NCBI GenBank assembly: GCA_964036195.1
Contig: OZ038460.1
Span: 15,255,504-15,319,503 of the forward strand
Direction of reading: 5' to 3'
DNA: 64,000 nt
Source: Sphaerolaimus hirsutus
Taxonomy: Eukaryota; Nematoda; Chromadorea; Monhysterida; Sphaerolaimidae
The translations under genes and the position numbers were made by a program. Positions 10,709 through 55,469 of the stretch are shown here, piece after piece; position 1 is the first letter of the stretch, and each line of letters opens with the position of its first letter. Under the pieces are notes generated by a model. It did no database searches and was not told where the DNA came from. It was given only the letters and a program-made list of their open reading frames with translations.

Positions 10709-11212
10709 TACATATCACTAACTGCGGTATTTGTCATGTACGTTCTCTTTACATTCAATTTTAGGGGGGGGGGTATTTCGAGGGGGTGGGGGTTATTAAT
10801 AATAAATATAATTTATCTTTATCATCTCCTCAGCCAAATTTTAGGACGGGGGGGTATTTCGAGGGGGGTAATTCGAGGTATTCTCCACAAACACCGCAAC
10901 CACCATGTTTCACTGGATCTATTCTATCAGAATCCAAGTAGAAATCATGCTCAACACAACTATGGGAACTGAACAAAATAAAATGTGGATCATTTCTGCA
11001 GATCTGAATCATATGATGAAGAACTGAAGATACTGAAGAATATGATACCATAATGTAAAAAATGCACATTTTTACAAACATTAATTTGTCCAGGAAAATA
11101 TAACAAAACGCAACGGTATTTTTAGAAAACGTTAGCGAGAAAAATGTCAATATAAAGATCCGTAATACCTGTTTTTCCGGGTAAACATAAATATGTTTTA
11201 CCAACTCTGAGC

Positions 11213-11728
11213 TAGAGTTCAAACGGGACTGACTTTTTGGGATCGGGATTGGCTTTTTGAGATTTCGGGATCGGGATCGGGGTTGGGCTTTCGGGATCGG
11301 GATTGGTATTTTGAGATTTCAGGATCGGGATTGGTGTCTCGGGATCGGGATCGGCATTTTTTTCAGGATCGGGATTGGGATCTTTGAAAAAGTTCTCATA
11401 TCGAAGGATTTTTTCAAATATACTGCAAAAAATAGGTCCAAAACACGCACGAATGCCGGAAAAGTGCCATAAATTGGACATTCGAGGTTCCTGGTCACAT
11501 TTCTTAGTGCAAAAATGTTATTTATAAAAGTTGGCAAACTTTCCCGGATCGGAATCGGGATTGAGTAAAAAAATTTCGGGATCGGGATTGGGATTGCAAG
11601 TTTCAGGATCGGGATCGGGATTCATTTTTGAGATTTCGGGATCGGGATAGAGGTTTCAGGATCGGAATCGGGACCACAAAATCAAGAAATTTCTCGGGAT
11701 TCGGGATCGGGATCCCGTTTGAACCCTA
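11213..11728. mobile_element. hAT-like element with GGGATC(GGGATT) core
   Basis: Inverted ends TAGAGTTCAAACGGGA and TCCCGTTTGAACCCTA, with an exact 8-bp duplication CTCTGAGC at 11205-11212 and 11729-11736. Almost all of the left and right thirds is a purine-strand repeat of GGGATCGGGATT. The centre (about 11385-11540) is AT-rich non-repetitive sequence. An 8-bp duplication is the hallmark of hAT transposons. There is no transposase. Confidence 0.9.
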
Positions 11729-11765
11729 CTCTGAGCCAAGCACTATCGCGTCAATATATGAATAC

Positions 11766-13372
11766 CGTAGTTCCACGAAATACCCCCAGGGAGTTTGTTA
11801 CCGTATTTCCTTGAAATACCCCGAGGGAGTTTGTTACCGTATTTCCGTTGTCTTACGTACGTACGTACGTTCCATATGTTACGTTTGAACAGGGTTTATA
11901 TTTACCATCTAAACACCTTCCCAGTCACGTCCGGCACCCTTTTATGATTTTACTTGTGACATCCTATCTCCAGTTCTAGGGCGCGCCAGAAGCTGAAACA
12001 TGGGGGAGATATTGGTGCAACCCCCCTCTACGCCACATCAATGGGGGAGTCGCGGCGACTCCTCTCAGGGTGGGTCACCTTAAGTGCAAAAATTTTATTG
12101 GCTTTTTTGGTGTCCCACACAGTTCCGGCACCCACTTATTTCTGAGCTGTGGGAGGGGTATAAATCTAAAATTTTGGGGATGTGTTACCAACAACCGTCC
12201 CCTACTATACACTATTCAATAATGTGAGATTAATGTTTAAAAAAATTCTAAAAAAATCTCTTATTCTCTAAAAAAAACACCACCCCCTAATAGATGGATG
12301 CCAAAAAATTCACTTTTTGGAACTTTTTTATTAGACATTTGAGAAACTGGTTTACGATACCTTAAAAGGAAGGGTTTGGTGTTTAAAGTTATGTAAAGAA
12401 ATTTACCTCTAAAATGCCTGCATTGCAAAATTTACTTGGGGGAATTTCAAAGTGTAAATTTTGTAAATTTTTGATCCTGCAATGATGTCATTATGATTTC
12501 ATAAAATTCCCCAAAGTAAATTTTGCAATGCAGGCATTTTAGAGGTATGGTTCTATACATTACTTTAAATATCAAGCCCTTCCCTTTACAGTATTGTAAA
12601 CATGCTCTTAAAGTGTCCAATAAAAAAGTTCCAAAAAGTGAATTTTTTTGTCATCCATCTATTGGGAGGTGGTGTTTTTTTAGAAAATAAGATTATTTTT
12701 TACAAATTTTTCACATTAATCTCACATTATTGAATAGTGTATTGTCGGGGAGGGGTGTTGGTAACACATCCCCAAAACTTTTGATCTATTCCCCTCCCAC
12801 AGCTTAGAAATAAGTGGGTGCCGGACCTGTGTGGGACACCAAAAAAGGCAATAAAAATTTTGCACTTAAGGTGACCCACCCTGAGAGGGGTCGCTGCGAC
12901 TCGCCCAGTTCATGCAAAGTAGAGGGGGTTGCGCCAATATCTCCCCCAAGTTTCAGCTTCTGGTGCGCCCCAGAACTGGAGATAGGATGTCACAAGTAAA
13001 ATCAAAAAAGGGTGCCGCACGTGACCGGGAAGGTATATATGTGTATAGACTCTTATTGTTACATTTTTACGTTACAAACAAAAAATTAGCACTGGGTGTT
13101 CAAAAACTTTCTGGTGAAATAAACCCCCCCCCTCGAAAAAACCCTCGTTTAACCCCCCTCAAAATTCTCACTCTGAAACAATCACCACCGGGGGTATTTC
13201 GAGGAAATACGGTGTTCCGCCAGCAAATTTTGAGGGGGTTTTTCGAGGCGGTTATTCAGCAATTAATACGTCATCTACATTGCATACATGATGTATTTAC
13301 ATTATTCGAGATCAGGGGTGCCCAGACCTGAGGGTATTTCGAGGGGGGGGGTAAATTCGAGGAAATACGGTA
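11766..13372. mobile_element. Family A copy (with tandem termini) holding palindrome G1
   Basis: The A terminus is repeated in tandem at about 11766, 11799 and 11836 (TACCGTA(G/T)TTCC..GAAATACCCC), followed by a family-internal segment (GAACAGGGTTTATATTTACC). After the palindrome the A sequence resumes (TATAGACTCTTATTG, TTACAAACAAAAAATTAGC) and ends with GAGGAAATACGGTAC near 13372. The palindrome therefore inserted into an existing A element. Confidence 0.7.
11913..13035. repeat. 1.1-kb palindromic element G1
   Basis: The sequence from CACGTCCGGCACCCTTTT (11925) through ATGGGGGAGATATTGG is repeated in inverse orientation at 12940-13030 (CCAATATCTCCCCCAAG to AAAAGGGTGCCGCACGTGAC). Further in, GGTGGGTCACCTTAAGTGC pairs with its inverse at 12865, and TTTTGCAATGCAGGCATTTT pairs with CCTGCATTGCAAAATTTAC across a centre near 12480. 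The arms are about 540 bp. It is related to G2 at 58116-59290. Confidence 0.9.
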
Positions 13373-13738
13373 CATGGTAATCACAAAAATTTTATTCTCT
13401 GGGTAATTGCTTCGCTTTAATTACATCGCTCTGATTGCATTTTGCATTCATTACACAGTGATTGCTGAAGTGTCACATGGTAATTAATCAGGAAGCACTC
13501 AATTAGGATACACATGCGTCAATTCAAAATCAGCTATGTCATAAATATTTAGACGGTTTCCATTCCAATTTACTTTGAATAATGAAATCAGTGTACGCTT
13601 TCGAAACTAACAAGATATTAAATGCAAACTAGATAAAGCTAGGTCTGTCTGATAAACAGAGATTTTTATTTACGTGCCATGCTCTTGCGCCTGTGATTAG
13701 TATCCTTGTCATTTGTATCAAATTGAAATTTTATGGAA

Positions 13739-14083
13739 TACTGTATATCCTCGAATTAGACCCCAGGGGACTAGGAGAGTGAATTTTTCGTCAGATGTTT
13801 TGGAGGGGGAGTTATTTTTTCATTGGAATCTACACTTTATTCATTTTGTGAATGCATTCCGTCAACTCGTGTAATCCAGGTACCTAGGTATATAACATTT
13901 CAGAAATATCAAAAACAAGGTATCGATGCTGAAATTCATGTTTGTTTGCATGCAATAATTCAAATACACGTTGTGGATACACATCAAATACCCGGAGGGG
14001 GAGTTATTCAAGGGGGTTATTTTTCCCTCACCTGGCCAGCTGGGGGGAGTTACTCAAGGGGTGTTATTCAAGGATATATGGTA
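13739..14083. mobile_element. A' subfamily element
   Basis: TACTGTATATCCTCGAATTA on the left and CAAGGATATATGGTA on the right, with CCCCAGGGG and GGGGGAGTTATT tracts. It abuts the next A copy, which starts at 14090. Confidence 0.75.
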
Positions 14084-14089
14084 CTTGTA

Positions 14090-14356
14090 TACCGTATTCC
14101 CTCGAATTACCCCCGGGGGGTTTATTTTTTCAGAGTGAAAATTTTGAGAGAAAAACGTGAAAAATGCAACAATAACCACCATTTATAAGTTTTTACAGCC
14201 TTATATAAGGATGTAGATGGTATAAACGATGTTCTAACGTAACACAGTAAGTGTTTTGAACGTATGTTATGCATTTCCTGGACCACAAATTCATAGTGCC
14301 CATTTTGAGGGTGGTATTTCGAGGGGGGGGGGGGGGTATTTCGAGGAAATACGGTA
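14090..14356. mobile_element. Family A element, short
   Basis: TACCGTATTCCCTCGAATTA on the left; TTTCGAGGAAATACGGTA on the right. The interior has the TTTATACCATCT-type landmark in inverse orientation. Confidence 0.75.
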
Positions 14357-14920
14357 ATTACATTTTTACTACCTTTGCACTTCGCTGCAAATAATTAACA
14401 ACAACCAACCGTTTTGCTTTGTGAAATACCAATCAAAATTTCAATTTTTTGCAAAATATTTTCCACACAAATCAGCCTCCGAGGTGGGGGTGTAAATAAT
14501 TTAGTCCCCCCCCCTGCAACTGAGCTTTTATCAATAGACTTCTTTGGGTAGTTTAATCAATTCGAACATGTTATAAATACCTAGATAACCCCGAAGCTCT
14601 GGTGATCAACCAAATATCTATATTAGCAATTAATTTTCGTGTCATCTTTTTGAGCTAATGATGCCAATGGCATGTGATATTTTTAAACTTCGTGCAAGCT
14701 CGGATTACATCCATTAATCAGAATATGAGAGCTTACTCAAACTGCTATCTCGCTAATTAATTTTCAGCCCGACATTTTGCAAACAAAATTTGCCAATTAA
14801 TTTATAGGTAGGTACCATTAGCGTGATGATCGGATCAGAATGTTTACCTACTGTAAATAGATGCGCCATTATTTAATTGACAACGATGGCAAGTTGTCCG
14901 TTTTGAATGTACAGTATTTT
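14357..14920. other. Intron, no feature seen
   Basis: AT-rich unique sequence with a C/G run at 14484-14515. No frame or RNA structure that I can support. Confidence 0.4.
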
Positions 14921-14925
14921 TAGAT

Positions 14926-15373
14926 GACCGTATTTCCTCGATATACCCCTCGAAATACCCCCTCGAAATACCCCCCTCGAAATACCCCCTCGAAATACCC
15001 CCTCAAAATGTACACTATGAGTTTATAAACCCCCCCCCCCCTCTGAATACCCTCCAAATATAGTGTTTAGAGAACGTTAATGACAAAAGGTAGGTTTGTG
15101 ATCAGGGAAACGTAGAACACACGTTAAAAACAATGACTGTGTTATGTTAGAACAGGGTTTATACCATCTACGTACATATATACCTATGTCTATTGAGTCT
15201 TATACATGGCGGTTTTTGTGGCATTTTTCGACGTCTGTGTACGTTACAGACAACAATTTGGTACTGGGATTTCAAAAAAATTCTGGCGAAATAATAAACC
15301 CCCCTCGTTTAACGCCCCCTCAAAAATCCCACTCTGAAAAAATAAATCCCCTGGGGGTATTTCGAGGAAATAT
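14926..15373. mobile_element. Family A element with reiterated terminus
   Basis: ACCGTATTTCCTCGATATAC followed by four more CCTCGAAATACCCC motifs (14940-15005). It ends in GGGGGTATTTCGAGGAAATA. The internal landmarks GAACAGGGTTTATACCATCT and GTTACAGACAACAATTTGG are clear. Confidence 0.8.
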
Positions 15374-16340
15374 ATTACTTTTTTATGAAAGTACGACTCG
15401 ATTTTCTTATTTTGAATAATTTTTTAAAATTAATTTAGACTGTACCTAATCTGCAGTTGAGTATATAGTGGAAAGAAGTGCAATCGTTGATGTTATTGTC
15501 ATTATAATTTACAGTGTGTGCAAATTACGTAAATGTGCGCATTGTTATGTTTTTATTTTTATTTTTTCTCATAATAGGTAATTCAATTTTACTGCTGCTT
15601 CAGCAATGGTTAAGCAATCAAAAATGTTTAACAAAACATTTTTCATTTCCCATCGTCATTAGTTGGAAGCTAGTTTCTTTTTATACTCCTCCCTAATATC
15701 AAATTCATAAAGGCGCGGATCATCCGGATTAGATTTACACGTGTTATTTGAACACGCGCAACCGTGCGTAACCAACGATGGTAAAAAAAACAGAAATTTA
15801 ACACAGAAACTCATTGAGTTTCTGTGTGTGTTTTTTTACACAGAAACAAGGAAACAAGAAAATTTGAAACTCAAAACACAGGTATTCAATTTTGAAAAAC
15901 TCAAAACACAGAAAGTTTTTTTTTTAAGAAAACTTACCCATCGCCGTGCATAACCGCTCACGGAAATTGGATAGGTTTACGGTGCTGTTAAGGTCATTAA
16001 GCCGATGAATTATTAATTTTGAATGTATTTTTTCTAAAGTTCATCTACATGCACTCAGCTTTTCCCAGCTATTTAGTTTGACATTTGGGAAGACGTTGAA
16101 AATTAGTCCGATATTTGCACCGTAGAAGCGCATTTTCTCGGTCGTACAAAATGTCAGGAAAATAAATACCGTTCCCTGAAAGGCATCCTAAATACACAAA
16201 TTACCCCCCCCCCTAGAAATACCCCCGCCCCATTTCGAAACATTCCCACCTGAAATGGTTCAAAGTTGATTTTCAAATGCACGCAGACTATGGATCGCAA
16301 TGACCGAACATTCAGCACTCACCGACGTTCTGGTGGTTAG
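15374..16340. other. Non-coding, with a small ACACAGAAAC inverted repeat
   Basis: AT-rich. At 15790-15940 several copies of AACACAGAAA and TTTCTGTGT alternate in opposite orientations. The outer motif CAACCGTGCGTAACC (15759) pairs loosely with GCCGTGCATAACCGC (15943), so this is a small foldback element. A fragment of family A (CCCCCCCCTAGAAATACCCC) lies at about 16205-16250. Confidence 0.5.
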
Positions 16341-16344
16341 CTAC

Positions 16345-16745
16345 GGGCCTGTGCCTCTGTGCATGTTTACCCGCTGTGCATGTCAGGAGTATTCAAGACT
16401 CTGACCCTCCAGGGGGTTGTATAGATGGCTAATCGCTCCTCTGGAAGGATAGATAGCTAGAAAAAATTTTTGGGGGGTTTGGGGGTTCGTGGGGGTTCAT
16501 TGTATAGGCTTTTTCATAATGAGGTAAAAAGGTAGAAAAATCGCTAAAAGTAGGTGAAAAATTACTAAAAATGGGTATATAAGCACATATACTACAAGAA
16601 ATAGCTTAAAATAGACAATAAAACACATGAACTCGTGATTTTGAAGGTGAAAATGTATAAAATGGTATGAAAATGAACGATTTTGTGTGAAAATTAGGGT
16701 CTACATGCACAGCGGGTAAACATGCACAGAGAGCCTCAGTCGTTA
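16345..16745. repeat. Foldback with doubled GTGCATGT ends
   Basis: CCTCTGTGCATGTTTACCCG and CTGTGCATGTC at 16354-16387 are inverted at 16700-16735 (GTCTACATGCACAGCGGG, TAAACATGCACAGAGAG). The interior has a TAGATAGCTAG / GGGGGTTTGGGGG block and TAGGTGAAAAATTACTAAAA. The end motif is a tandem pair of about 16-17 bp, as in the elements at 17.0, 30.6 and 61.2 kb. Confidence 0.75.
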
Positions 16746-16891
16746 GCTACGTTGTTTTTGTAAAACTTTTCTGTTCAAATAAGCTTCAATTTCAAGTAAA
16801 TTTAGTTCGAAAACATCCCGCTTGTTTTTTAAAATACTTTCTTTTTTTTACCCTAATTTTCGCAGAACTACCGATATCTGGCGATGCGCAG

Positions 16892-16929
16892 CTGCAGGCT
16901 CAATGGCAATACGGACGCTATCACCAGCC
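16892..16929 (+). CDS. Small putative exon reading LQAQWQYGRYHQP
   Basis: A GC-rich island in AT-rich intron, with a T-rich stretch followed by CGCAG. Two acceptors are possible: after 16865 (phase 2) or after 16891 (phase 0). The second is in phase with the exon ending at 9621. The donor is CAGCC|GTTAGT; the two leftover bases plus the first base at 18068 complete a Pro codon. The longer form would add LPISGDAQ upstream. The island is short, so it could be chance, but phase agreement on both sides supports it. Confidence 0.5.
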
Positions 16930-17004
16930 GTTAGTCGCCCATTTTAACTTTTATGCGCTCATTGAAATCGTCTATTTTTGTGTGCAAAAACAAAGTTGCA
17001 AAGT

Positions 17005-17995
17005 GACGTAGGCTCGCTTGGCATGTAAACCGCTTGGCATGTAGACCCATCGCGGTGGTCTCTTGGGGGAGGGCTGCTCAGCTATATATCCATTCCGAGA
17101 CTACTATCCCCTGAGCCCCCCACAAATCGCTCAACTAAATATATAGGTATAAATGTGGAGCAAACTTTGTGCAATTTTTCTCCAATTTTTACTCTAAATC
17201 ACCAAATTTATTCTGGCTGTCTAAAGTATATGATAGCATCTCAAAAAATGTGGTTTTGTTAGAAACCATATCAGTTATCTCAGCATAAGGAATTTAGACA
17301 CCACTGATAAGTTTGAAGTGTTATAACTTTTGATTGGAAAGAGATTTTTAACTCATTTTTGTTTTATGTTAATTCTCGATGACCAAAGTATATGATAGCA
17401 TGTTCAAAAAAGTTTATTTTTCGTGTTTAAAAACCGGGTGAAATGGGCATACGGAATTTAGACATCACTAATCTGACAACAAAAATGGCATCTTCAGGTT
17501 TTGCCGATCATTTGAAGTGTTGAACGAGCCAAATCGGCCCAGAAATGGTCGAGTTATCAGTCGAGTTATTCAAATTCAATCATGCAGATTGGCCATTTTT
17601 TTATTTTTATGGAACACTTTTTTATAGATCCCCCTTATCTTGGGCATGGGGGATTTTTTGAGCAAACGAAAATTTTCAGTCATAGGTCTGACCTCAAACC
17701 CCAACATACTCGAACAGCATCAAAGTTTGGCAAGGTTCAATGAAGAGGGTAGCAACAGAAGTTTGATGGACCCACAACCCCCCATTTCTCTATGGTGAAA
17801 AGTCCCAACTTTTCTGCACGGTAGTGTATATCATATATATTTTAGCCCCAGCGAGCCCCCCAGAAAAATTGTCAGCTATCTATCCCTCCGGAGGAGGGAT
17901 TTGCTATCTATGAAGCCCTCGCGAGGGTCAAAACCTTGGAAACCCCTGATCCGTTGTCTACATGCCAAACGGGTCTACATGCTGACAGGCACAGG
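17005..17995. repeat. Foldback with GCTTGGCATGTA ends around a palindromic core
   Basis: Left end: GCTTGGCATGTAAACC and GCTTGGCATGTAGACC (17017-17050). Right end: inverted motifs TCTACATGCC and GGGTCTACATGC (17955-17985). The core contains AGTGTTATAACTTTTGATTGGAAAGAG, whose relatives occur in the large palindrome at 46.2-47.6 kb, and CTATCTATCCCTCCGGAGG. No coding capacity. Confidence 0.75.
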
Positions 17996-18067
17996 GTCTC
18001 GCAAAAGCACAATTAGGTAGTTTTTCATACGCATCATCACCACCAGTTGCCTTAAAATTGTGCGCAG

Positions 18068-18181: not shown

Positions 18182-18298
18182 GTGTGATATTTATGTGTGA
18201 AAATGACTCGTGTGGTGTTCCTTCCAATTACCTAAGTGTTCTCTTGGTGTTTTTTTTCTGCGTGACGATGTTGTGTTCTCTGAAATCTTTTGTAGTTT

Positions 18299-18961: not shown

Positions 18962-19119
18962 CAGGGTTGGCAAAATCTCAGAGAAAAAAAACTTAAAAAA
19001 TGGAAATTTGAATTATAAATTAAAATAAAACGAAATGAAACATGAATAAAATTAAAATAAAAGTTTTTTACAATTTTACTACAATTTTAGTAAAAAGAGT
19101 TTTACTAAAACCAACCCTG
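18962..19119. mobile_element. 158-bp hAT-like element with AAAATAAAAT core
   Basis: Ends CAGGGTTGGCAAAATCTC and AAACCAACCCTG. Exact 8-bp duplication TTCGGCAC at 18954-18961 and 19120-19127. The core is AT-rich with TAAAATAAAA runs, then TTTTACTACAATTTTAGTAAAA near the right. It has the same termini as the larger element 53943-55350. Confidence 0.9.
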
Positions 19120-28025: not shown

Positions 28026-28127
28026 ATATATAAAATTTGTTAAGTTACAGGCTACTTTACGGTAAATAGTGAAAGTGCTGTGCCGAAACTTTGCCCACTA
28101 TTTAAAATACCATACGGGTGTATACCA

Positions 28128-28626
28128 CAGTTGTTAAAATGTACGTACATTTACTCGAAAAATACGCATACGCGAGTACGCGGTAAATACATTTACATAT
28201 ACTTTTAAAAAAAGTAATGTACTCTCTTTTACGCGTACATTTTAAAAGTACACGCATACAGAGAAAATGTATTTTTGTTGCTAAAATCATAATTTTCTGT
28301 TGCTAAAATACGACATTTTTTAAGAAATCTAACTTTAAATAAATAATTTTTCTAACAGATACTAAATAATCACTAAGAAACGACATTTATTATGTCTTCC
28401 AGTGTAAAACTCACTCTTACATGTAAAAAAGTCGCAGCCTTTATGTTTTCCAGTGGAAAAGTACTCGCTTTTACATTTTCCCGGGAAAAAAGTACTTTAC
28501 TCACATTTACGCATGAGTACGAGTAACAAAAAAAAAGGATCTACATTTTCTATACTTTGTGGTGAGTAACAAGAAAATACTTACATAAACATATACTTTT
28601 AAAAAAGTTCAGTAATTCTAACAACT
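28128..28626. mobile_element. Family B element (B1)
   Basis: CAGTTGTTAAAATGTACG to TTCTAACAACTCTG, flanked on both sides by GTGTATACCA. The interior alternates TACATTTTAC, GCGTACATTTT and AAAAGTAC(T/A)C motifs. Confidence 0.8.
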
Positions 28627-28756
28627 CTGGTGTATACCATACCAATTTCTCTTCATCGCTATATGTATTCTGAATATGTGCTTATCCATCACTTACGGGG
28701 TAATCTGAATTGATCCCCATGGTGATTCGAAATTGCAACAAACATCCATTGTGCAG

Positions 28757-29532: not shown

Positions 29533-29967
29533 TAGGGTGTCATATTTCCGTTTTCCGTTTTCCGTTTCCGTTTACCGCAGACAATTTTTTTCTCCGTTTT
29601 CCGTTCCGTTTTCCGGCAGCTGAAATTTTTTCCGTTTTCAGGCTGCTGAAATTTCATTTTTCTGCCTGATCTTACCTTTTTATGGTCCAACTTTCTGTTT
29701 TCTGTTCCAGCCAAACTGGTAAACATTCATGCAGATTGTCAATTATGTAAATCTTTTCTGTTTCCCGATGAATTTCTGCAAATTTTTTCCACTTCCAGCA
29801 AAATTTCAGCAAATTTTATCTGTTTTCCAGCAAAATTTCACCAATTTTTTCCATTTCCGTGCAAATTTCATTTTCCGTTTCCGTTTTTCCGGCCCCTTTT
29901 TCCGTTGTCCGGCCGCTGAACTTTTTTTCCGTTTCCGTTTTCCGTAAAAAATTTTTTTGACACCCTA
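29533..29967. mobile_element. hAT-like element with TTTTCCG core
   Basis: Ends TAGGGTGTCA and TTGACACCCTA, with an exact 8-bp duplication GTGATGAG at 29525-29532 and 29968-29975. The core is pyrimidine-strand simple sequence of TTTTCCG and CAAATTTT units, with one TTTTCCGGCAGCTGAAATTT module repeated. Confidence 0.9.
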
Positions 29968-30574
29968 GTGATGAGGCAGGTGTATACCGAAATAGGTTTA
30001 CTTTTTTGGGCACATTACTCTCCTCTTCCAGGTGCGATTTATGATGCGTTTCTTTTTAAGACAACGTTCACCATTGCATTAATACCGATGCCTAGGTCTT
30101 CTACTTGTCATTTAAGAGAGTTTTGTTCATGGAAATCCTTCTCAGGTTTTGGTTGTCGACCTCGACGCTAGGGTTGGGGAACCGAACCGAACCGAACCGA
30201 ACCGAACCGAGAACCGAGCACAATTTTGGAACCGAGAACCGAGAACCGGAACCGAAAAAAATACCCGAACCGGAACCGAGAACCGGCACTTAGACCCGGA
30301 ACCGAACTAAAGAACCGAAAGAACCGAAATTTTATAAAATAATCGGCCGCCTCCTCCCTTCCTGGGTCAGAGTAGGGATATGCCTGGAAATGTAACTTCT
30401 GGCATCAATTTTTAGGGTGATTTGTCAAAAAAATTTGCGCGCAAGCGCGCAATTCTTGCTTCACGTGACCGGTGATTTCATCTCACCGGTCGCGCAGCCT
30501 CATGTGTTCACGATCCCACCTAAAATGTGTATATGTATGTAAAATACATATACAGCAGTCTGTGGGGGGCTGTG

Positions 30575-31395
30575 CCAGTGCGCATGTAAACCTGGTGCGC
30601 ATGTAGGCCCATTTCCCCACATTTCTCTATCACGCTGATATTTTAGAAGTACATTGGTAAGCGTACTGGTAATTCTCTATAAAATACAGCGAGTGGGGTG
30701 CCAGTCTCTCTATATGTACATGTATAAACATACATACAGGGACGTATCCAGGATTTTTGAGCGGGGGGGGGGCTGCTTGTTTACGGGGGCCGGCGAACGG
30801 GGGGGGGGGGCTCAGCCCCCCCTAAATTTTTTCTCTATATAGGTACGAAAAGGCGTTTTGGCGCTAGTGCCATACAAAAGCGCCACTCCATGGCGCTATT
30901 GGCGTTGGCGCCAGCTCCGGGAACCACTTTATATGTATGTAATTATGCATACATATACGGCGAAAAGTCACAAATATGTGTTCATTTCTAAGGATAGTGG
31001 TTTAAAGGGACCTATCCAATGCATGGGGAAGAAATTGCGCGCTTGCGCGCAAAATTTTTAAGAAACATCAAAAATTATATAGGAAAAGTTGCATTTTCTG
31101 GGACCTTTTAGGTCTCGCCCCGGGAAGGGGGGGCTGCAGCCCCCCCCCGCCCCCCCCCTGGATACGTCCTTGCATACATATCAGAGATTTTTGGCACCAA
31201 TGCCAATGGCGCCAGCGCCATGATGCCATTTCGTCACCATGTAGGTAAACTTTTAGGGTGGGTGGCTGAATCCCCCTCCCGTACACCAGGCTCAGTAAAC
31301 AAACATACACCATGCTCAAAAATCCTGGATATGTACCTGGCCCCCGAAGCAAGGGGTCTACATGCACACTGGGTTTACATGCACACCAAGTTTTG
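30575..31395. repeat. Foldback with doubled GTGCGCATGTA ends
   Basis: CAGTGCGCATGTAAACCTGG and TGCGCATGTAGGCCC at 30577-30612 oppose GGGTCTACATGCACACTGGG and TTTACATGCACACC at 31350-31390. Same terminal design as at 16.3, 17.0 and 61.2 kb, with a different core. TTGCGCGC(A/T)(A/T)GCGCGCAA palindromes lie at 30435-30460, outside the left end, and at 31034-31055 inside. Confidence 0.75.
30737..31172. mobile_element. Family C element with 8-bp duplication
   Basis: CAGGGACGTATCCAGGATTT to CCTGGATACGTCCTTG. The 8 bases on either side are CATACATA. Internal GGGGGGGGGC blocks and a short GGCGCTATTGGCG segment. No protein. Confidence 0.85.
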
Positions 31396-31789
31396 GCTGT
31401 CTGGGGCACCTATGCTAACACCAATGGCGCCATGGCGTGGTGCCTATGAATGGCGCGAGCGCCATGACACCATTCCGCCACTACAGGGGCAAAATTGTAG
31501 GGGGAGGTTGTTTTATGTTGTTTTTCCTTTGTCCGCTTATTATTTTCTTATTCCCGATTTTTTCATTACCCGATACCCGACTTTTTCATTACCCGGAATC
31601 GAATATTTTGATAATTTGGAACCGAAAGAACCGAACCGGAACCGAACTTAAGAACCGAACCGAGAACCGGAACCGAAAATTTTGAGGAACCGAGAACCGA
31701 GAACCGAACCGAAATTTTTTAGAACCGAGAACCGAGAACCGGAACCGAAAATTTAGAAATTCCCAACCCTACTCGACGCATACTGTGTT

Positions 31790-32000: not shown

Positions 32001-32291
32001 AAGCTTTACTGAAGCCTCATTTCAGCGCTTGATTATCCAGCGATAGCCACATTATTCCCCCTGTTTAGTGTTTGATTGAGTTGTGTTTCAGTTGCCTTTT
32101 GTAACCAATGGCTACCTATTTGAAATGCAAGATAAATTGATCATAAAATCGAATCGCGTCGACATCACGTATTCATCCCACGGCCCTTTCGACTTATTTA
32201 TATACATTCATTCATTTATGGATGACTGTCTATTCAAGGAAGTGACATTTGTAAATGGCGCTTCAATATTTATGTTGACATACATATTTAC

Positions 32292-32970
32292 ATGGTCCGG
32301 CTGAAAAGTGGCCGGGCAGTGCTCGCCATTCGCGCTAGGGGTAAGCTACGGTCATAAAATTTTGACAGGTTAAGATATCAGGTGTTTTGAGTTCTCACCC
32401 AAAATTTCACCCCTCTAGCTCCACCCACTGCGGAACTGTGGGGGTTACAATTTCGGTCATTTTGTACTGATGTACAAATGGTGCTCTAGCTCTATTTTAA
32501 TGTTGTTTTGTAATGTGCAGTAAATGAATTATGTGGATAAAATTTCCCTATGTTTCATTACTAATGTGTAGTGGATACATTACCAGTGTTCAACAGCAGT
32601 GAGTAGACTCCAAGGGGGGCTATTTTGAGGAGAGGCAGAATGATGAATTTGGTAGTGAGAGTAGTGACAGTAATGACAATATAGACTAGGCTTATGATAT
32701 CATAGCTAATGTTGGTTACTGCTGGCACATTGCCAACACTGGTGGCTCACACTAGCCAAAGTTTCATGATCACAACATAAAGCATCATTGAGCTAAAGCT
32801 AGAGCACCATTTGTACATCAGTACAAAATGACCGAAATTGTAACCCCCACAGTTCCGCAGTGGGTGGAGCTCAAAACACATGTTATCATAACCTGTGAAA
32901 ATTTTATGACTGTAGCTTACGCCTAGCGCGAATGGCGAGCACTGCCCGGGGACTTTTCAGCCGGACCATG
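32292..32970. repeat. 680-bp palindrome
   Basis: TACATGGTCCGGCTGAAAAG (32291) is inverted at the right end (CTTTTCAGCCGGACCATGTA). Further pairs: CTCGCCATTCGCGCTAGG with its inverse near 32925, and TGTACTGATGTACAAATGGT with its inverse at 32808. The centre (32510-32750) is AT-rich and mostly unpaired. No transposase. Confidence 0.9.
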
Positions 32971-32987
32971 TACTTGTCGCGCAATAC

Positions 32988-33270: not shown

Positions 33271-33291
33271 TACCCAATTCATATGGGGCAG

Positions 33292-33510
33292 GCCTGATAC
33301 GCACACGTGCCCGATACGCACATTTGCCCGTTTTTTTCACTTGACACTTTTTCAAGTGATTTTCAGATATGAGTGAAGTGAAAAAGTTTACTAATGTCAT
33401 TGCGCAACTTTTTTTCACTTTACTCATATCTGAAAATCACTTGAAAAAGTGTCAAACGAAAAAAACAGGCATATGTGCGTATCGGGCACGTGTGCGTATC
33501 AGTGCACGCC
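33292..33510. repeat. Foldback with doubled GATACGCACA(C/T)(G/T)TGCCCG ends
   Basis: CTGATACGCACACGTGCCCG and ATACGCACATTTGCCCG oppose GGCATATGTGCGTATCGGGC and ACGTGTGCGTATCAG. The core is a clean hairpin of TTTTTCACTTGACACTTTTT and TATCTGAAAATCACTTG. It is a compact version of the hierarchical palindrome at 4061-4645. Confidence 0.85.
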
Positions 33511-33655
33511 CATTCATATCACCCAAAATTCCATGATTTGTCGAAATTTCAGTCTGATTCGCTTATTCACCCAATTAGTGATGGAATCCGACTGTGGATG
33601 TTTTAGTTGATGCTCAGCGCGCACTTTAGTGCGTTTCGGCATAAATTCGTTAATC

Positions 33656-36368: not shown

Positions 36369-36756
36369 CAAGGACGTAGCCAGGGGGGGGGGGTGAGGGG
36401 GGCGGCCCCCCCCCCGGTTCCCTGGTAAACATTGGGAAAATTACCGATTGAACATTCGCGCATATACCCTGCACTCAACAATTATTTTCAGTTCACCTGT
36501 CGTGGCAGCCTAAAATCCTTTGCAGATTCGCTAAACGTGACCACGTCGCAGTATGTTTTTAAAATACATACATATACAGCGCTCTATGGCGCCATGGCCA
36601 ACGCCAGTGGCGCCGTGACGTGACGTTGCGCCTACGAATGGCGCCAGCGCCATCGCACCATTCCTTTAGTACAGGGGTCAAATTGGGGTGGGGGGCTGCG
36701 CCGGGCTCCGTATACAATCCGCCCCCCCCCGCTCAAAAATCCTGGCTACGTCCCTG
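36369..36756. mobile_element. Family C element with 8-bp duplication
   Basis: CAAGGACGTAGCCAGG to CCTGGCTACGTCCCTG. The 8 bases on each side are CGTGGCAG (36361-36368 and 36757-36764). An internal R-like GGCGCC segment lies at 36590-36655. Confidence 0.9.
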
Positions 36757-46185: not shown

Positions 46186-46219
46186 TAGCTGGGCGATTGG
46201 GGGGGTGGGATAGAGGAAA

Positions 46220-47592
46220 TCGGGGGTAGCATTTTAGGGGGGGGGGGTTCCGCCAGAGTTTGCATGGTTATAAATCTGCAACCAGTTGGCGAAATTTGTC
46301 GAAACTTGGATATAATGTGGTTTCATGTCGGGGCTGACATGAAAATCGAAGACATCTGCATACGACCCCCCTGACCCGAAATAGGGTGGGTCTGAAAAAA
46401 AGTATATTTTTCGATTTTTTTGCGTGTAGCCTGAAATATGCAAACTTTGAATCTCAATAACTTGGCTATTTCTTGATCGATTTTGTTCGTTTGAGTTTTA
46501 TTATGATTGTAAATGTTTGAAGAGTTCATTTGTGAGGTCAAATCTGCGATTTACAATTTGCCATAAATCGATTTGGGCCAATTTCAGAATGCAAAATTTT
46601 GAAAAAATTTTTTCTCTTAAGCATGCTATCTTGTACTCTTCATTGAGTGAAACAGAGTACCAAAACAATTAGATCGATATCTTTTTCCAATCAAAAGTTC
46701 TAGCACTTCAAACTTCCGCCTCCAATCCATACAATTAACCGCATGAAGAACAATGTGTGCAAAATCAAAACTACATATCTCGACCATTTCTCCACCGATT
46801 TTCGCCAATGAACTCTTAAAATGATCAGAATAACATGAAGATTGCATTTTCATTATCAATTTATTCATATATGACGTAAAGTTTCCTGTACAACTAAATA
46901 ATGCGAACTCTTGAATGAAATTGTCATGATGAAAAGTCATATAGAAAATCTGATGGTGAAAATGTAATCTTCAGGTTATTCTGATCATTTAAAGTGTTCA
47001 TTGGCGAAAATCGGTGGAGAAATGGTCGAGATATGGAGTTTTGATGTTGCACACATCGTTCTTCATGCGGTTTATTGTATGGATGGGAGGCGGAAGTTTG
47101 AAGTGCTATAACTTTTGATTGGAAAGAGATATCGATCTAATTGTTTTGGTACTATGTTACTCTCAATGAAGAGTACAAGATAGCATGTTTAAGAGAAAAA
47201 ATTTCTCAAAATTTTGCATTCTGAAATTGACCCAAATCGATTTATGGCAAATTTTAAAATCGCAAATTTGACCTCACAAATAAACTCTTCAAACATTTAT
47301 GATCAAATTAAAACTCAAACGAACAAAATCGGTCATGAAATAGCCAAGTTATTGAGATTCAAAGTTTGCGTGTTCCAGGTGACACGCAAAAAAATTCGAA
47401 AAATTTACCTTTTTTCAGACCCACCCTATCTCGGGTCAGGGGGGTCGTAAATATGCAGATGTCTTCGATTTTCATGTTAGCCCCGACATGAAACCACATT
47501 ATATCCAATTTTCGACAAATTTCGCCTAGTGGTTACTGAGTTATAACCATGCAAACTTTGGCGGACCCCCCCCCCCTAAAATGCTACCCCCC
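46220..47592. repeat. 1.37-kb palindrome with arms of about 630 bp
   Basis: Left arm: TTTTAGGGGGGGG, CCGCCAGAGTTTGCATGG, CTGACATGAAAATCGAAGAC, TCCACCGATTTTCGCCAATG. Right arm repeats them inverted: CATTGGCGAAAATCGGTGGA, GTCTTCGATTTTCATGTTAG, CCATGCAAACTTTGGCGG, CCCCCCCCTAAAA. The turn lies near 46850-46960. Outside on the right is GATAGATAGATAGCTGGAGC with a G run, as at 26040. No protein. Confidence 0.9.
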
Positions 47593-47759
47593 GTTTTCTT
47601 TTATGGGGGAGGGGTTATTTCAGGGACATGGTAGCCAAAAATTTCGCGTAGTGATAGATATATGAGCAGTCTCTCGGATAGATAGATAGCTGGAGCGTTT
47701 GGGGGGGTCACCCCACCAACCCCATCCCCCTATTAGCCCCTGGCTGCAATGCCAGCCAA

Positions 47760-47891: not shown

Positions 47892-47909
47892 CACCGCGCT
47901 CCACAAAGT

Positions 47910-48800: not shown

Positions 48801-48802
48801 TA

Positions 48803-49402
48803 ATGATGAAAAAGCGCTGTGGCGCTAGCCCAAAGCAAAAGGCGCCATGATGCTAGCCCAAAGCAAAAGGCGCCATGATGCTAGCCCAAAGCAAAAGGCG
48901 CCATGGCGCTAGCCCAAAGCAAAAGGCGCCATAGCGCTAGCCCAAAACAAAAGGCGCCATAGCGCTAGCCCAAAGCAAAAGGCGCCATGGCGCTAGCCCA
49001 AAGCAAAAGGCGCCATGGCGCTAGCCCAAAGCAAAAGGCGCCATGGCGCTAGCCCAAAGCAAAAGGCGCCATGGCGCTAGCCCAAAGCAAAAGGCGCCAT
49101 GGCGCTAGCCCAAAGCAAAAAGCGCCATAGCGCTAGCCCAAAGCAAAAGGCGCCATGGCGCTAACCCAAAGCAAAAGGTGCCATGGCGCTGACCCAAAGC
49201 CAAAGGCGCCATGACGCTTTTGACCGTTGGCGACGGGAACCAAATGCCTGGCGGTGGCGCTGTCAGGGCGCTGCTATAGGGCATTTGGGCAAGAACCAAA
49301 TGCCAAAGCAAAAAGCGCCATGGCGCTTCTGGCGCTTGCGTCATTTTTCTCTAGCGCGATTGGCGCTTGGCACTGAAGTCCTGGCTCTTTTTACATCACT
49401 AA
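48803..49402. mobile_element. Family R element with an internal 28-bp satellite
   Basis: TAATGATGAAAAAGCGC on the left and GGCTCTTTTTACATCACTAA on the right. 48826-49208 is about 13 tandem units of 28 bp, each GGCGCTAGCCCAAAGCAAAA plus GGCGCCAT. Variation is mostly at one CpG-containing site (ATGATG, ATAGCG or ATGGCG). Confidence 0.9.
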
Positions 49403-49892
49403 TTCAGGGTTACATTGAGCTATCGAACCACTTTTCTAACTATTTACTTGGAATGCTTTTACTTTAAAAACGTGTACGCATCGCTTGTTGCTCAACGCCC
49501 TAATATAATTTCATCACGATAATTACAAATAGTGGGCGTAATCAATCCATTTACGCTTACGTTTCAGAAATTTTGGTGTCAGCTTTCCAGCGGACAGAGA
49601 CCTCACTCAGGGTTAATTGAGATGGATGTTAATGTGATTTTTTATCCGTGCTAATCCATCCTTACTCGGATGTCCTTTGTCGACATCATTTCCTTGATTT
49701 TAAAATTCCTTTTAGAAAATACCAGGGTTTTTCCGTAATGCCGGAAATCTCCTCATCTCATAATTAAATTTGAGTCTGTCTAAAAGATCAACCTTCATTT
49801 TGACATTTTTCATATTACATCCTAATGACAATTGTAATATTTTTTCTGGTCTTGTCTAGTTGAAGCGTCCGCGCTATCACAGCAAAAAATGG

Positions 49893-50033
49893 GTATGTGA
49901 TGCGTCGTGACGCGAGCTGGATGCACGTGAAGCGGAGCTCTTCCACACGCTTCACGAATTTCACAAGTTTTGTGAAGGTTGTGGAAGCGCGCCACTTCAC
50001 GTGCATCTAGCCCGCTTCCCGACGCATCACACA
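49893..50033. repeat. GTGATGCGTCG hairpin, 141 bp
   Basis: GTGATGCGTCGTGACGCGAG, CTGGATGCACGTGAAGCGGA and TTCCACAC pair with the inverse run GTGGAAGCGCGCCACTTCAC, GTGCATCTAGCCCGC and CGACGCATCAC. The turn is TTCACAAGTTTTGTGAA. Confidence 0.85.
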
Positions 50034-50074
50034 CACATCTAAGCGGCTTAGATATATTTCCATTTTACTCATCA

Positions 50075-50190
50075 TTTGATAGGTGTAAAACACTGAGCGC
50101 CATGGCGCATTTAAGTGTTTGGCGCCGGGCGCCAATTGCACCATGGAAAAATGGCGTGACGAGCAAAAATGCGACTTTTACATCATTACA
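50075..50190. mobile_element. Family R element, short
   Basis: GCGCCATGGCGCATTTAAG, GGCGCCGGGCGCC, right end GCGACTTTTACATCATTA. Confidence 0.65.
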
Positions 50191-50489
50191 ATGCCCATTA
50201 CTTATAGAAACTAATGGTGATGTTTATGTCCGTTGACTACCGTTCATAAAAAAATTTATTGTCATAATGTGACAGTGTAAAACTGGAAGTTTGTACGGCA
50301 GAAATCTGGCTTTCAAACGGTACGGCGTTTAATATCTATCGTTATCTGGGCTGTAGTTACTTAATGATGTAAAGATTTCATTTCCTACTTTTCATGCCTT
50401 ATTAGAACCGCAAATCCTTTCAATTTCCGTGGTTCGATACGCATTTTGGATATTATTTATCATCGAAATTTGGCTTATTTGAGAAGGAA

Positions 50490-50622
50490 TACTCTTCGCG
50501 TACTTCGCGTACTTTCAAAAAGTATGCGAGTAAGTGAGTACTGGTGTTTTTGGGGGGAAACGTAAATGTATTTACGCAGTACTCGAGTATTGAGTAAACG
50601 TAAATACGTTTTAACAACTATG
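50490..50622. mobile_element. Right part of a family B element
   Basis: TTTCAAAAAGTATGCGAG, ACTCGAGTATTGAGTAAACG and TACGTTTTAACAACTATG only. The left half is absent. Confidence 0.7.
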
Positions 50623-51107
50623 GTGTACAACACCAATTGCCAAAAACACAGAAGATGATGGTGCTAAGAGCCAGGACAACCAACAACAAAAAAGTTTCAC
50701 CTACAACTATTCCATTCTATCCTAAATTGCCAAATCAGTATGCAAAAGCTGCCCCTGCCCTAGCCTCCTACACAGTATTTACACAAGGAAAAACTTAAAC
50801 TGTTTAAACAGATGTATGCTTGGGTGCAAGCAAGCTTGCAATGATTCAACATTGTAAATTGGACGGCAATAAACAAGCAAGATATACTGATCAGACATTT
50901 GGAATGGACTCTATACCGAAAGTGTTACTGTCTTGTGATGAATAAAACACATGTTAAAAGTTGTGTATTGTGCACCCAATTCACTCATGAGCAATGTCAA
51001 GCAAGGGGAAAAATAGAGATTTGTTAGATTTCATTATAATGCATGCTACCAGTGAACTATACAAAATGACAAAGCACACTTGAGAGAAAAACAGTCCTTC
51101 AGGTGGC

Positions 51108-51512
51108 AGTCGCAAGCCCTGTAACGTGTAAAGTAAAGTGTCAAATTTCATGTAAAATATCAAGCAAAGTGTCAATTGTCATGACAAATGTAATGTAAAG
51201 TGTCAAATATCATGCAAAGTGTCAAATGTCAAGCAAAATGTCAATTGTCATGGCAAATGCGAGCAATGTGTCAATTGTGTATCCAACTCTTTTGTTGTTG
51301 TGTCCAGATCACATGTCTTTGTGTCCGAATCTTATGTTAAAAATGGATACAAAAACATAAGATCTGGATACAAAAACATAAAATTTGGATACACAATTGA
51401 CACTTTGCATGCCATTTGTCATGACAATCGACACTTTGCTTGAAATTTGTCATCACTTTTGACACTTTGCTCTACTTGGGCTTTGGGCTTGGGACTGTCC
51501 CCTGGTGGTGGT
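51108..51512. mobile_element. Family T palindrome (T8), long
   Basis: CAGGTGGCAGTCGCAAGCCC to GGGCTTGGGACTGTCCCCTG. The inner hairpin GTATCCAACTCTTTTG / GGATACAAAAACATAAG is also present in the T copies at 40.2 and 54.3 kb. Confidence 0.85.
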
Positions 51513-51791
51513 TCCACACCATGTCAGTGAACTACTAAAGATGTAAGTAACTTTATAAGTGAAAAGTAAACTTTTACCTAAGTACAAAAAATTGTCACTC
51601 GAATGTTTACTCGTGATTAGCTCCACACTGAGAATTATCGGTTATGACACACTTGTCACAGTTCCGGATTGGCTTCACACACAGGGTCAGCCTCATTGAA
51701 AGCACTAAATGCTCATTATGCACATGCTTAATGAACTCAGCATACCCCATGGCCGTTTCAGTGCTTAATTAGGATCCTATATGCATGTGAC

Positions 51792-52203
51792 TACCGTATT
51801 TCCTCGAAATACCCCCCCGGGGGTGATTGTTTCATAGTGCTCCCGAGAGGGAGTGGGGTTAAACGAGGGGGTTATTATTTTGCCAGAAATTTTTTGGAAT
51901 GGTAGTACAGAATCGTTGTTTGTGATGTGCGCTGGGGTAGAAAAATGCATCAATAACTGACATGTATAGACTCCTGTATACTAATAATAGTACGTAGATG
52001 GTATAAACACTGCTCTCACGTGATTCCGACATTGTTTTAACGTGTGTTCTGCACTACGCAGAACACAAACTGCACCATTTGTCATGTACGTTCTCTTTAC
52101 ACTCAATCTGGGGGGGGGTATTTCGAGGGGGTGGTGATTGTTTCATAGTGGTCTCGAGAGGGGGGGGGGGTCAAACGAGGGGTGTATTTCGAGGAAATAC
52201 GGT
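51792..52203. mobile_element. Family A element
   Basis: TACCGTATTTCCTCGAAATA to TTTCGAGGAAATACGGTA, with an interior almost the same as the copy at 41912-42343 (CATCAATAACTGACATGTAT, AATAGTACGTAGATGG). Confidence 0.85.
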
Positions 52204-52554
52204 AATTAGTTTAAATTTGACATAAAAATTCATCCACTCAGTGATGAGATGACATTCACTGCAGTGCAGTTACTAGCATTGAAAAATCTCATATTTATTT
52301 ATGTTTATATTTTTAAATTATCAACAAAAATTTTTATTTATTTATATTTCCTCTGGGACTTTCCAAATACCTAGATTTGATTTGATTTTTTCTGCGAAAA
52401 ACTATGAAAAAATATCTTATTTTTTATTTTGTTCTGGTTTTGTCAGAGTGATTTTATTATATTTTCTTTTTGATAGATTTTATGAGATTATGTTGAATTA
52501 TACTCTTTCAAAATCACCCATGTCTTCAATGATATCTTAACTACGGTAAAGTTT

Positions 52555-52735
52555 TATTAACATCATTGCACTTTTGGCGTTATTTAAAACGCTAGCGCCA
52601 AGCGCCAGACAGCCACCAGAATATGACGCCAATCGCCATGGCGCTTTTAGGATCGTGGCGCCAAACGCGCCCATGGCGCCACAGCATTTTAGCGCCATGG
52701 CACTTTTTCTTTGGTGCTATCGTTTACATCACTAG
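52555..52735. mobile_element. Family R element
   Basis: Left CATCATTGCACTTTTGGCG, interior GCTAGCGCCAAGCGCC and GGCGCCACAGC, right GTGCTATCGTTTACATCACTA. Confidence 0.7.
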
Positions 52736-53319
52736 TCGTGTCTTTTAATTATCCCTGTTCATATTTATTATTTTTGCATATTTAGCGCGATATTATCGGG
52801 ACACCTACTGAGGTGAAATGTCTACGTCCTACGCTGCCGCAGTGTAACATAACTTTACAACAAACAGAAAAAAGTTTGATTTGATCGCGATATTTTTTCA
52901 TTCCGATGTTTGCCAGGTCTGGTTCACTTAAACTCCACCGTCCGGGATTATTTATTTTACGCATTTTTGGGATAGATAGGAACTAAAAGATTGATCTTTC
53001 AAAAACTGAAATATTATTGCCGCGGGTATTGAGCGGATACGAATCTCTGAGTGGCTAGAAAAAAATACTATTGATTTATCAAATATTGTTTTAACAGGTG
53101 TAGCCTCTTGACAGCTGAAAATCTGCAAATGTGGGGGGGGTTACATTTACGACAAGGTGGGGGGGGGGGTAAAAACTTTTTTACGAGCTGTATATTCTCT
53201 AGATATTAAGGGTGGGAGGCTGGTCGCAAATCCCATACCAATCCATTCATTTTGCGTTTCCCAACCCCTTTCCCAAACCACCCAAATCTCAATTTCCCAA
53301 CCCCCCCCTCATTTCACAG

Positions 53320-53502
53320 ACGCAAACTACTCAGAGTGCTAGCAAATCGGATCAAAAAGCTCCTAATTCTCCCCAATCCACTTCGCAATTGTCCGAGGGC
53401 AAAAGCGGCGACGAGGAAACGATGGGCGATAATCGGAGGATTACGGTAGCCGGGTGCAGGTCGCCCGAATTGTCTGCCGGCGGGCTGAGTAGGAGTTTTG
53501 TG
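53320..53502 (+). CDS. Ser/Gln-rich putative exon
   Basis: Pyrimidine-rich acceptor (CCCCCCCTCATTTCACAG), then an open frame TQTTQSASKSDQKAPNSPQS, TSQLSEGKSGDEETMGDNRR and ITVAGCRSPELSAGGLSRSF. The donor may be GTG|GTTGGT (53502, phase 0, matching the next exon), CTGA|GTAGGA (53488) or TGCAG|GTCGCC (53459). The composition is Ser, Gln, Lys and acidic, typical of a disordered linker. The frame is in phase with 60207 and 63786 if the longest form is used. The T/C-rich upstream region has a G run at 53130-53170. Confidence 0.7.
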
Positions 53503-53942
53503 GTTGGTTTCGGGGGTTTTCCTTTTCTTTTTTTTTGGGGGGGGGGGGGGTCAGTCAGACCTCAGACTTTGACCCAGACGAAAGTACCGCGCTTTTTTCG
53601 AAGTATGTGTACCTGGTATTGTATGTGGAAAGTATTTTGTTTTTGTACAGAAAGCGTAAATTTAAAATTATATTTAATTCTCATGAGTAAATGAGAGTTA
53701 AATACTTTTTTCCCAGAAAGCGTAAATGCGAGTATTTTTTCATGGAAGCATAAAAATTGAGCAAAATTACCTTTTCTTTCTCCAAAAAAACATTATGAAT
53801 TTTTACCTTGGACAGCAAAAAGGTGTTCTCTTTCTATTAATAAGTATTCTTTATGAAAAGCAGGGGTTTCGAATTGCAAAAATACTCTTTCTGTACTCAC
53901 AAAAAATTACTCTACAGTACTCGAGTACTCTCGTCTCAAGAA

Positions 53943-55350
53943 CAGGGTTGGCAAAATCTCAGAAAAGAATAAAAATAAAATTAAAATAAAATGGAAAATT
54001 GAAGAATAAAATAAAATAAAATAAAATGGAAAATTTCAAAATAAAAATAAAAATTGTATAAAAATTCGAATTTTTGTAAAATTTTTGTAAAATTGTATAC
54101 AAATTCATATTTTTGTAAAAATTGTATAAAAATTCATATTTTTTTCTGTTGTTTATAGTTCAACCTGGTCATTCGCGGAGCTGGGGCAGTCCCAAGCCAT
54201 GTAAAGTGTCAAAATGTCATGAAATGGAATGGAAAGTGTCAATTTTCATGAAAATGTTAAGTAAAGTGTCAATTGTCATGACAAATATCAATTAAAGTGG
54301 AAACTGTTAAGCAAATTGTATCCAAATCTTATCTTTTGTATCCAAATCTTGCTGTTTTTGTAACCAAATCTTATGTGAACATTTGGATACAAAAACATAA
54401 GATTTGGATACAAAAATATATGGTTTGAATACCAAAACATAAGATTCAGATACACAATTTACACTCTGCACGACATTTGTCATGGCAATTGACACTTTGC
54501 ATGATGTTCAACAAATGCGCCCAGCACACTCCAGTAATCCTACTGAAAATGCAAACCATTCTTATTGATAATTGTAACTTAACACTTGCAACTAGCTAAC
54601 AATACCTACTGCATGCAACTTTTGCAAAGTAATGGAAAAATTTGTCACGCGTTTTTCATGTTTAGGTCTAATTATCACATTTTTCTGACCTTGCATGCAA
54701 GATTCTGATTTTTTGTAAAATTTCTGTAAAATTTTTGTAAAATTTTTGTAAAATGGTCCATTTTATTATTTTTTATTATTTTGGAATAAAACAAGGACGT
54801 ATCCAGGGGGGGGGGCGGGGGGGGCTGCAGCCCCCCCCGTTCCCGGGTGAGACCGGAAAAAATTGAGGAAAATGCCGTTTTCGGTACTAATTTCCAAGGT
54901 GCTATGTAAAAATTTTGCGCGCTAGCGCGCATTTTTCCACCGTCCACGGAAATCATTGGAAAATCGGCACCTGTACCTTCAAATATCTGTAATATACGTT
55001 GAATTTCGTGCCCATCTCTCCATATGTATGTATATTTACATACATATCAGCGGTTCATGGCGCCAGCGCCAACGCCAATGGCGCCATGGCGTGGCGTCTA
55101 CGAATGGCGCCAGCGCCATGGCGCCATTCCGCCACTATACAGGTACAATTTTAGTGGGGGGGGGGGCTGAGCCCCCCCCGTTCGCCGGGCTCCGTAAACC
55201 AACAGCCCCCCCCGCTCAAAAATCCTGGATACGTCCCTGGAATAAAATAAAATAAAATAAAATGAAACAAGAATAAAATAAAAATAAAATACATTTTTAT
55301 ACAATTTTTATACAATTTGTATACAAATGATTTTTATAAAACCAACCCTG
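53943..55350. mobile_element. 1.4-kb hAT-like element with AAAATAAAAT core
   Basis: Ends CAGGGTTGGCAAAATCTC and AAACCAACCCTG, with an exact 8-bp duplication CTCAAGAA at 53935-53942 and 55351-55358. It carries AAAATAAAAT simple sequence at both ends, a family T palindrome (54186-54500) and a family C element (54792-55239) inside. Same termini as the 158-bp element at 18962. Confidence 0.9.
54792..55239. mobile_element. Family C element nested in a hAT-like element
   Basis: CAAGGACGTATCCAGG to CCTGGATACGTCCCTG with exact flanks GAATAAAA (54784-54791 and 55240-55247), i.e. it inserted into the AAAATAAAAT core. Internal GGCGCCAGCGCC and TTGCGCGCTAGCGCGCA motifs. Confidence 0.9.
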
Positions 55351-55469
55351 CTCAAGAATACAGATACTTTTTTCAAAGTATGTGTACCTACCATGTGTAT
55401 TTACTCAGTACTCGAGTATGCATACTTTTTGAGTAAAAGTAAATATGCATTAACAACTGTGACTCAGAC

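Follow-up and report, generated by a model that had tools for sequence, protein, structure and literature searches.

One-strand arrays of putative transposase-binding sites in the subterminal regions of non-autonomous hAT-like elements of Sphaerolaimus hirsutus

How does a simple repeat come to lie between the ends of a hAT transposon? The question is raised by a stretch of 64,000 nucleotides (hereafter, the window) of contig OZ038460.1 from the nematode Sphaerolaimus hirsutus. An initial annotation of the window, made from the sequence alone, described four hAT-like elements (E1 to E4) and a miniature (M) with repetitive interiors, and suggested either expansion of subterminal transposase-binding sites or an element seeded by a repeat. 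We examined these elements in the window and in its own genome (348 Mb in 762 contigs; L-numbers label loci from it). We consider it likely that they are non-autonomous hAT elements with amplified, putative subterminal transposase-binding sites. The arrays are more likely an overgrown form of a known transposon part than satellites captured between hAT ends.

We scanned the window for pairs of hAT-type ends flanked by a duplication, and scored end identity over 14 bases. Nine pairs had at least 10/14 identical bases, each with an exact 8-bp duplication, and all remaining pairs had 7/14 or fewer; 60 order-3 Markov simulations, in which one duplication mismatch was permitted, gave eight comparable pairs in total, from seven runs. 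The nine pairs comprise all five of the units described in the initial annotation and four additional hAT-like elements (N1, N2, N3, and X) (Table 1). The five units have short terminal inverted repeats of the YAGGG/YAGAG type and exact duplications (5/5), and hAT transposase-domain fragments occur inside elements with E2 ends (see below); they are transposition units, as had been proposed. M and E4 are identical in the first 21 bp and the last 14 bp. The GGACCG-containing relative that had been noted near the start of the window matches the right end of E1 in 21 of 25 bases, though it has no duplication, and an intact relative exists at L063. An origin from telomeres (TAGGGTT) was rejected because the units are bounded and have duplications.

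The repeats are real and different in each element; the description of the interior as a simple repeat was overstated. In E1 to E4 the motifs are found in roughly the outer 100-200 bp at each end (in E3, the 160 bp next to the left end hold 17 copies of GAACCG, and the about 155 bp next to the right end hold 16), as 2-4 motif clusters alternating with AT-rich linkers, and we found no period in common when the helical phasing of the clusters was examined. Most of the arrays surround a non-repeat middle, namely, about 160 bp in E1, mostly DNA from a different hAT-like family in E3, and a palindromic core plus the nested element N2 in E4 (by eye, the core is also present in two other genome copies, L021 and L032). 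The middle of E2 looks like a decayed array, as four CpG-transition variants all lie between its two intact arrays. The alternation of GGGATC and GGGATT in E1 corresponds to C-to-T changes at CpG (5 units changed vs. 15 intact), and no such unit was found among 34 rows for E3. In E1, E3, and E4, the array at one end aligns directly with that at the other (72-85% over 65-160 bp; in E3, a 65-bp stretch with 85% identity in direct orientation). Continuation of the repeat beyond the ends would have argued against bounded elements; in the 500 bp on each side, the arrays are confined, with no E3 or E4 motif and no GATCGG at E1, and with one GGGAT near E1 and six TTCCG and two CCGTTT near E2 when both strands were counted.

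Despite the inverted terminal repeats, the motifs at both ends of an element are on the same strand, a polarity that the initial annotation had missed. The counts on the two strands were 33 vs. 0 in E3, 16 vs. 0 in E2, and 15 vs. 0 in E1; in E4 they were 9 vs. 0 for AAATAAAAT and 17 vs. 2 for AATAAAA. The 5-mer cosine between the left and right sides in direct/inverted orientation was.86/.04 in E1,.82/.10 in E2,.95/.01 in E3, and.75/.33 in E4, and the shuffle maxima for the direct value were.33,.51,.43, and.67, respectively. X was intermediate (.56/.38); among N1 to N3, taken as hAT controls, N1 was more inverted than direct, and N2 and N3 were about equal. The orientation of the array relative to the shared ends is identical in E4 and M. 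Foldback/TU-like elements, which have long inverted arms of tandem repeats, would also show tandem repeats near the ends with 8-bp duplications (8-10 bp in Tetris; PMC4079207). The arrays are direct, not inverted, in E1 to E4 and in all array rows of the scan described next; this orientation refutes a Foldback origin, to which we give hardly any credence.

We scanned genome loci totalling 203,692 bases. The scan gave 41 rows, 29 of which were array elements, and direct similarity exceeded inverted similarity in 29/29. Among the 12 non-array rows, inverted similarity was the higher in eight, the two were equal in one, and direct similarity was the higher in three, including a row that encloses an array element. 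The E1-type end TAGGGTTCAAAC was found with GGGATCG and with GGGACC arrays, and as TAGGGTTCAAACGA with AATATCG arrays (L043, L054, and L055); the E4 family was found further at L021 and L032. Seven motif families are present in total, with CGG/CCG in four, CpG in six, and only AT in one; in the window, three of the four motifs contain CGG/CCG, and the fourth is AT-rich. One-strand polarity across seven motif families is a notable part of the finding, and we recognised no description of one-strand arrays in the literature searched, which took in few subscription papers and not Repbase. Two hAT-like elements without one-strand arrays (L019:2472-3130 and L027:314-961) have TAGGGATGG ends, close to the end of maize Ac, which is TAGGGATGAAA.

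The array is inherited with the family. Using E1 as the query, we obtained 4541 first-look candidates and scored 40 of them (46 rows). The first 40 rows, apart from the window copy, were 77-86% identical across the arrays and the middle; thus, the array came from a master copy and was not re-made at each site. In 30 copies, including the window copy, GATCGG occurs 7-16 times per copy and is confined to one strand in every copy; as these copies are related, the one-strand array is one inherited trait and not 30 events. Whether the 8-bp duplications are general had been asked earlier: when shifts of up to 2 at the ends were tolerated, the duplication was exact in 16 of the 30 copies and 7/8 in seven, but 6/8 or less in the other seven. 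The copies are 342-619 bp long, the shortest having a degraded left end. With many copies, conserved ends, and no intact transposase, E1 belongs to the miniature inverted-repeat transposable elements (MITEs). As for the target pattern nTnnnnAn, which is preferred by the Hermes group (PMC10512250), the window duplications have T at position 2 in 5/5 and A at position 7 in 3/5; in the genome, the values were 6/15 and 6/15 for the E1 family (15 of the 16 exact copies) and 8/14 and 9/14 for the others.

A search of the genome for the hAT dimerisation domain (PF05699), in line with the earlier proposal to look for a transposase with matching ends, gave 28 matches, 12 of which lay inside elements that have hAT ends and a duplication matching at 7/8 or better. 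Nine lie inside elements with E2 ends and AAACGG arrays (reverse complement, CCGTTT) at L044, L045, L048, L049, L063, L064, L065, L068, and L071. These elements are 1082-1950 bp long, with a duplication exact in eight and 7/8 in one; the AAACGG arrays of the two ends share a strand, and in 9/9 the transposase fragment is encoded on the other one (TTTTCCG). A domain is likewise enclosed at L054 by AATATCG arrays and TAGGGTTCAAACGA ends (E1-like, with one base different; duplication 7/8), and at L047 and L050 by AAACGTA arrays and CAGAGTTG ends (duplication 8/8). Direct array similarity exceeded inverted similarity in all 12 domain-bearing elements. In the case of the match at L058, a wider stretch (L075) holds a degenerate E2-type element of about 1.06 kb (7396-8455; duplication 7/8 by eye). 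L076 holds one of 152 bp (duplication 6/8).

E2 itself is identical to L044 at 76/79 positions on the left and 150/165 on the right (91-96%), and to L049 at 85/91 and 153/178, respectively. As its flanks match L044 on both sides, E2 is an internal deletion of an L044-type hAT element bearing a transposase fragment. E2 has 11 AAACGG hexamers, and L044 has nine on the left and nine on the right, above the minimum of three for Ac/Ds given below.

These observations bear on a repeat-seeded origin, in which hAT ends by chance flanked a pre-existing satellite tract that then became mobile. One prior tract would give direct orientation at both ends, and the motifs are in places near-perfect tandem repeats. 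However, longer E2-type elements have the same arrays on either side of hAT transposase fragments, the E1 array came from a master copy, the inner edge of the end fits the array motif (TAGGGTTCAAACGG with GGGATCG or GGGACCG; TAGGGTTCAAACGA with AATATCG), and a separate event would be needed for each of the seven motifs. We regard this origin as very improbable. Expansion of binding sites, the other origin suggested at the outset, is favoured because the arrays adjoin the ends, the E2 unit equals the hexamer of Ac transposase, and the arrays are inherited within families.

Ac sites in maize occur in both orientations. The hexamers here are denser, form tandem clusters, and keep to a single strand at the two ends, and the likeness to Ac lies in the ends, the duplications, and the hexamers. 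Ac/Ds elements have 8-bp duplications, TAGGG-type ends, and, in the outermost 200 bp, clusters of AAACGG hexamers; the hexamers are bound by the transposase, and at least three are required; numerous non-autonomous derivatives have internal deletions or filler (PMC3260210). Most hAT BED/Hermes-domain proteins examined preferred CGG motifs and some preferred AT-rich ones, and the four measured hAT motifs matched the subterminal regions (PMC8097297). Housefly Hermes, too, carries short BED-finger sites close to each end, and their orientation depends on the end (left STR2-7 antisense, right STR1-5 sense); symmetrised left/left ends are inactive (PMC10368747). If the Hermes sites are counted from each tip, as the text suggests, they would lie on one physical strand, as here; the Hermes sites (AAGT/AAGC) are dispersed, in contrast to the tandem clusters of 10-30 in the present elements. 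Kat1/MAT and Herves have subterminal repeats (AATTCA/TGAATT and CG/AATTCAT) that are bound or stimulating, but in few copies, and the polarity in Kat1 reportedly differs between the ends (PMC4763223, PMC3143072). Satellite-carrying MITEs (Xmix/Xstir, miDNA4, and GTCY) and Galileo/Tetris have tandem repeats within non-autonomous elements, and those of Galileo contain extra transposase sites (PMC9659126, PMC4079207); these belong to other superfamilies, or have longer units or inverted arms. Coral CMITEs are piggyBac-like and hence not relevant (PMC2872659). Subterminal hAT binding sites are thus known, and the present case is one of overgrown subterminal repeats in non-autonomous hAT elements.

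According to the binding-site reading, each family would derive by internal deletion from a transposase-bearing hAT element, as the E2 alignment shows and as may hold for the others, and would move in trans. The apparent satellite would be the subterminal region, that is, a family-specific motif in 10-30 copies, clustered with AT-rich linkers and all on one strand, and the motif, probably a docking site for the transposase, would be recognised by the matching hAT transposase through its BED zinc finger. More sites would catch more transposase, which would select for site number, and slippage in DNA synthesis after excision would lengthen the arrays. Position and motif support the role of amplified binding sites well; we advance it as a hypothesis that the one-strand layout keeps the two ends different.

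Several points weigh against this reading. In Hermes, interior sites more than 50 bp from the end contribute little (PMC10368747), and a long array may therefore bring no benefit. Only four of the seven motif families contain CGG. M alone gives no orientation signal (.36 direct and.33 inverted, inside the shuffle range), and the case for polarity is weakest in E4, as its motif is of low complexity. For 16 of the 28 PF05699 matches no enclosing element was found in the flanks examined, some of which were perhaps too short (one, L046, was without ends). None of the 28 matches was enclosed by E3- or E4-type ends, and no parent of E3 or E4 came to light among them. We saw no full-length transposase or autonomous copy, the fragments reaching about 120 residues at most, and a search for longer E2-type elements in L075 and L076 gave none with a full transposase. 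Slippage alone would likewise lengthen arrays. This last point leads to a rather unlikely alternative, in which passive arrays arose in a freely varying region, through abortive gap repair or slippage of the microsatellite kind, and were carried along by transposition, the extra sites bringing no gain. The near-dispensability of the Hermes interior sites, simple-repeat runs such as (GAACC)6, filler DNA in Ds elements (PMC3260210), and known microsatellites borne by MITEs (PMC9659126) are consistent with it. Against it, seven different motifs all adjoin the ends on one strand, CpG decay in E2 affects the central units and has left those close to the ends intact, and the E2 motif is a known hAT binding hexamer.

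Table 1. Positions of the elements, arrays, and related copies (window coordinates unless a locus is given)
Feature	Position	Strand	Remarks
E1, hAT MITE	11213..11728	.	516 bp; duplication CTCTGAGC; ends TAGAGTTCAAACGGGA / TAGGGTTCAAACGGGA; GGGATCG arrays
E1 left array	11225..11390	+	clusters of GGGATCG/GGGATTG
E1 right array	11545..11715	+	same strand as E1 left array
E2, hAT MITE	29533..29967	.	435 bp; duplication GTGATGAG; ends TAGGGTGTCA; TTTTCCG arrays (other strand, AAACGG)
E2 left array	29545..29640	+	
E2 right array	29848..29945	+	same strand as E2 left array
E3, hAT-like non-autonomous element	30169..31771	.	1603 bp; duplication CTCGACGC; ends TAGGGTTGGG; GAACCG arrays
E3 left array	30178..30338	+	GAACCG, n=17
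E3 right array	31610..31758	+	GAACCG, n=16; same strand as E3 left array
N1, hAT-like element nested in E3	30737..31172	.	duplication CATACATA
E4, hAT-like non-autonomous element	53943..55350	.	1408 bp; duplication CTCAAGAA; ends CAGGGTTGG; AATAAAAT arrays
E4 left array	53965..54052	+	
E4 right array	55240..55291	+	same strand as E4 left array
N2, hAT-like element nested in E4 array	54792..55239	.	duplication GAATAAAA
M, E4-family miniature	18962..19119	.	158 bp; duplication TTCGGCAC
N3, hAT-like element	36369..36756		exact 8-bp duplication
X, hAT-like element	28126..28629		duplication GTGTATAC; ends CACAGTTGTTAAAA / CAGAGTTGTTAGAA
Relic with E1-type end	310..445	.	GGGACCG motifs; without duplication
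Intact GGGACC-motif element	L063:2878-3016		139 bp; duplication GTCACGTA; perfect 14-bp ends
E3 second copy, right part	L037:about 2009-2192		E1 copy inserted into it
E4-family third copy	L070:1328-1489		162 bp; exact duplication GTCACAAT

N1, N2, and N3 form a second hAT-like family with CAGGGACGTATCC ends, exact 8-bp duplications, and G/C runs; two of the window copies are nested (in E3 and E4), and more copies were seen at several genome loci. X is full of RTAC-type words and is perhaps related to the CAGAGTTG-ended family at L047 and L050. Two palindromic units (4057-4653 and 33285-33511) carry 17-bp repeats of the ACGCACATCTGCCCGGT type in both orientations and the 8-bp flanking repeats AACGAGAC and ATTCATAT, and possibly represent a foldback family. 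Long near-perfect palindromes without clear end duplications were found at 46210-47604, 11910-13039, 32289-32972, and 58116-59009 (arms 80-100% complementary), the last adjoining 200 N at 57916-58115, an assembly gap or masked stretch. A 28-bp minisatellite at 48809-49218 (14.6 copies) is GGCGCC-rich, with related words elsewhere in the window. L075 contains a frame that resembles a G protein-coupled receptor, named by eye. A search of Rfam gave no matches, 10 window open reading frames matched no Pfam family, and no homologue was found for a 415-aa frame. Among viral contigs, three patterns had no matches, and the 13 matches of the fourth were to phage-like sequence without an array and were attributed to chance.

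A broader reading is no more than tentative. In this animal, one-strand arrays may be a general device for discriminating the left and right hAT ends, with non-autonomous families competing for transposase by array lengthening and new families arising when BED specificity and motif switch jointly while the outer end TAGGGTTCAAAC is kept (GGGATCG, GGGACCG, and AATATCG). As all sites are on one strand and the tips are inverted, the direction of the sites with respect to the tip would be opposite at the left and right ends, which would enforce the asymmetric left/right synapsis required by Hermes. If true, genomes of this kind would provide natural series of transposase-binding sites varying in motif and length, which could be used to deduce the specificities of BED fingers; how hAT elements tell their ends apart would become testable; and overgrown transposon ends would be one source of satellite-like DNA.

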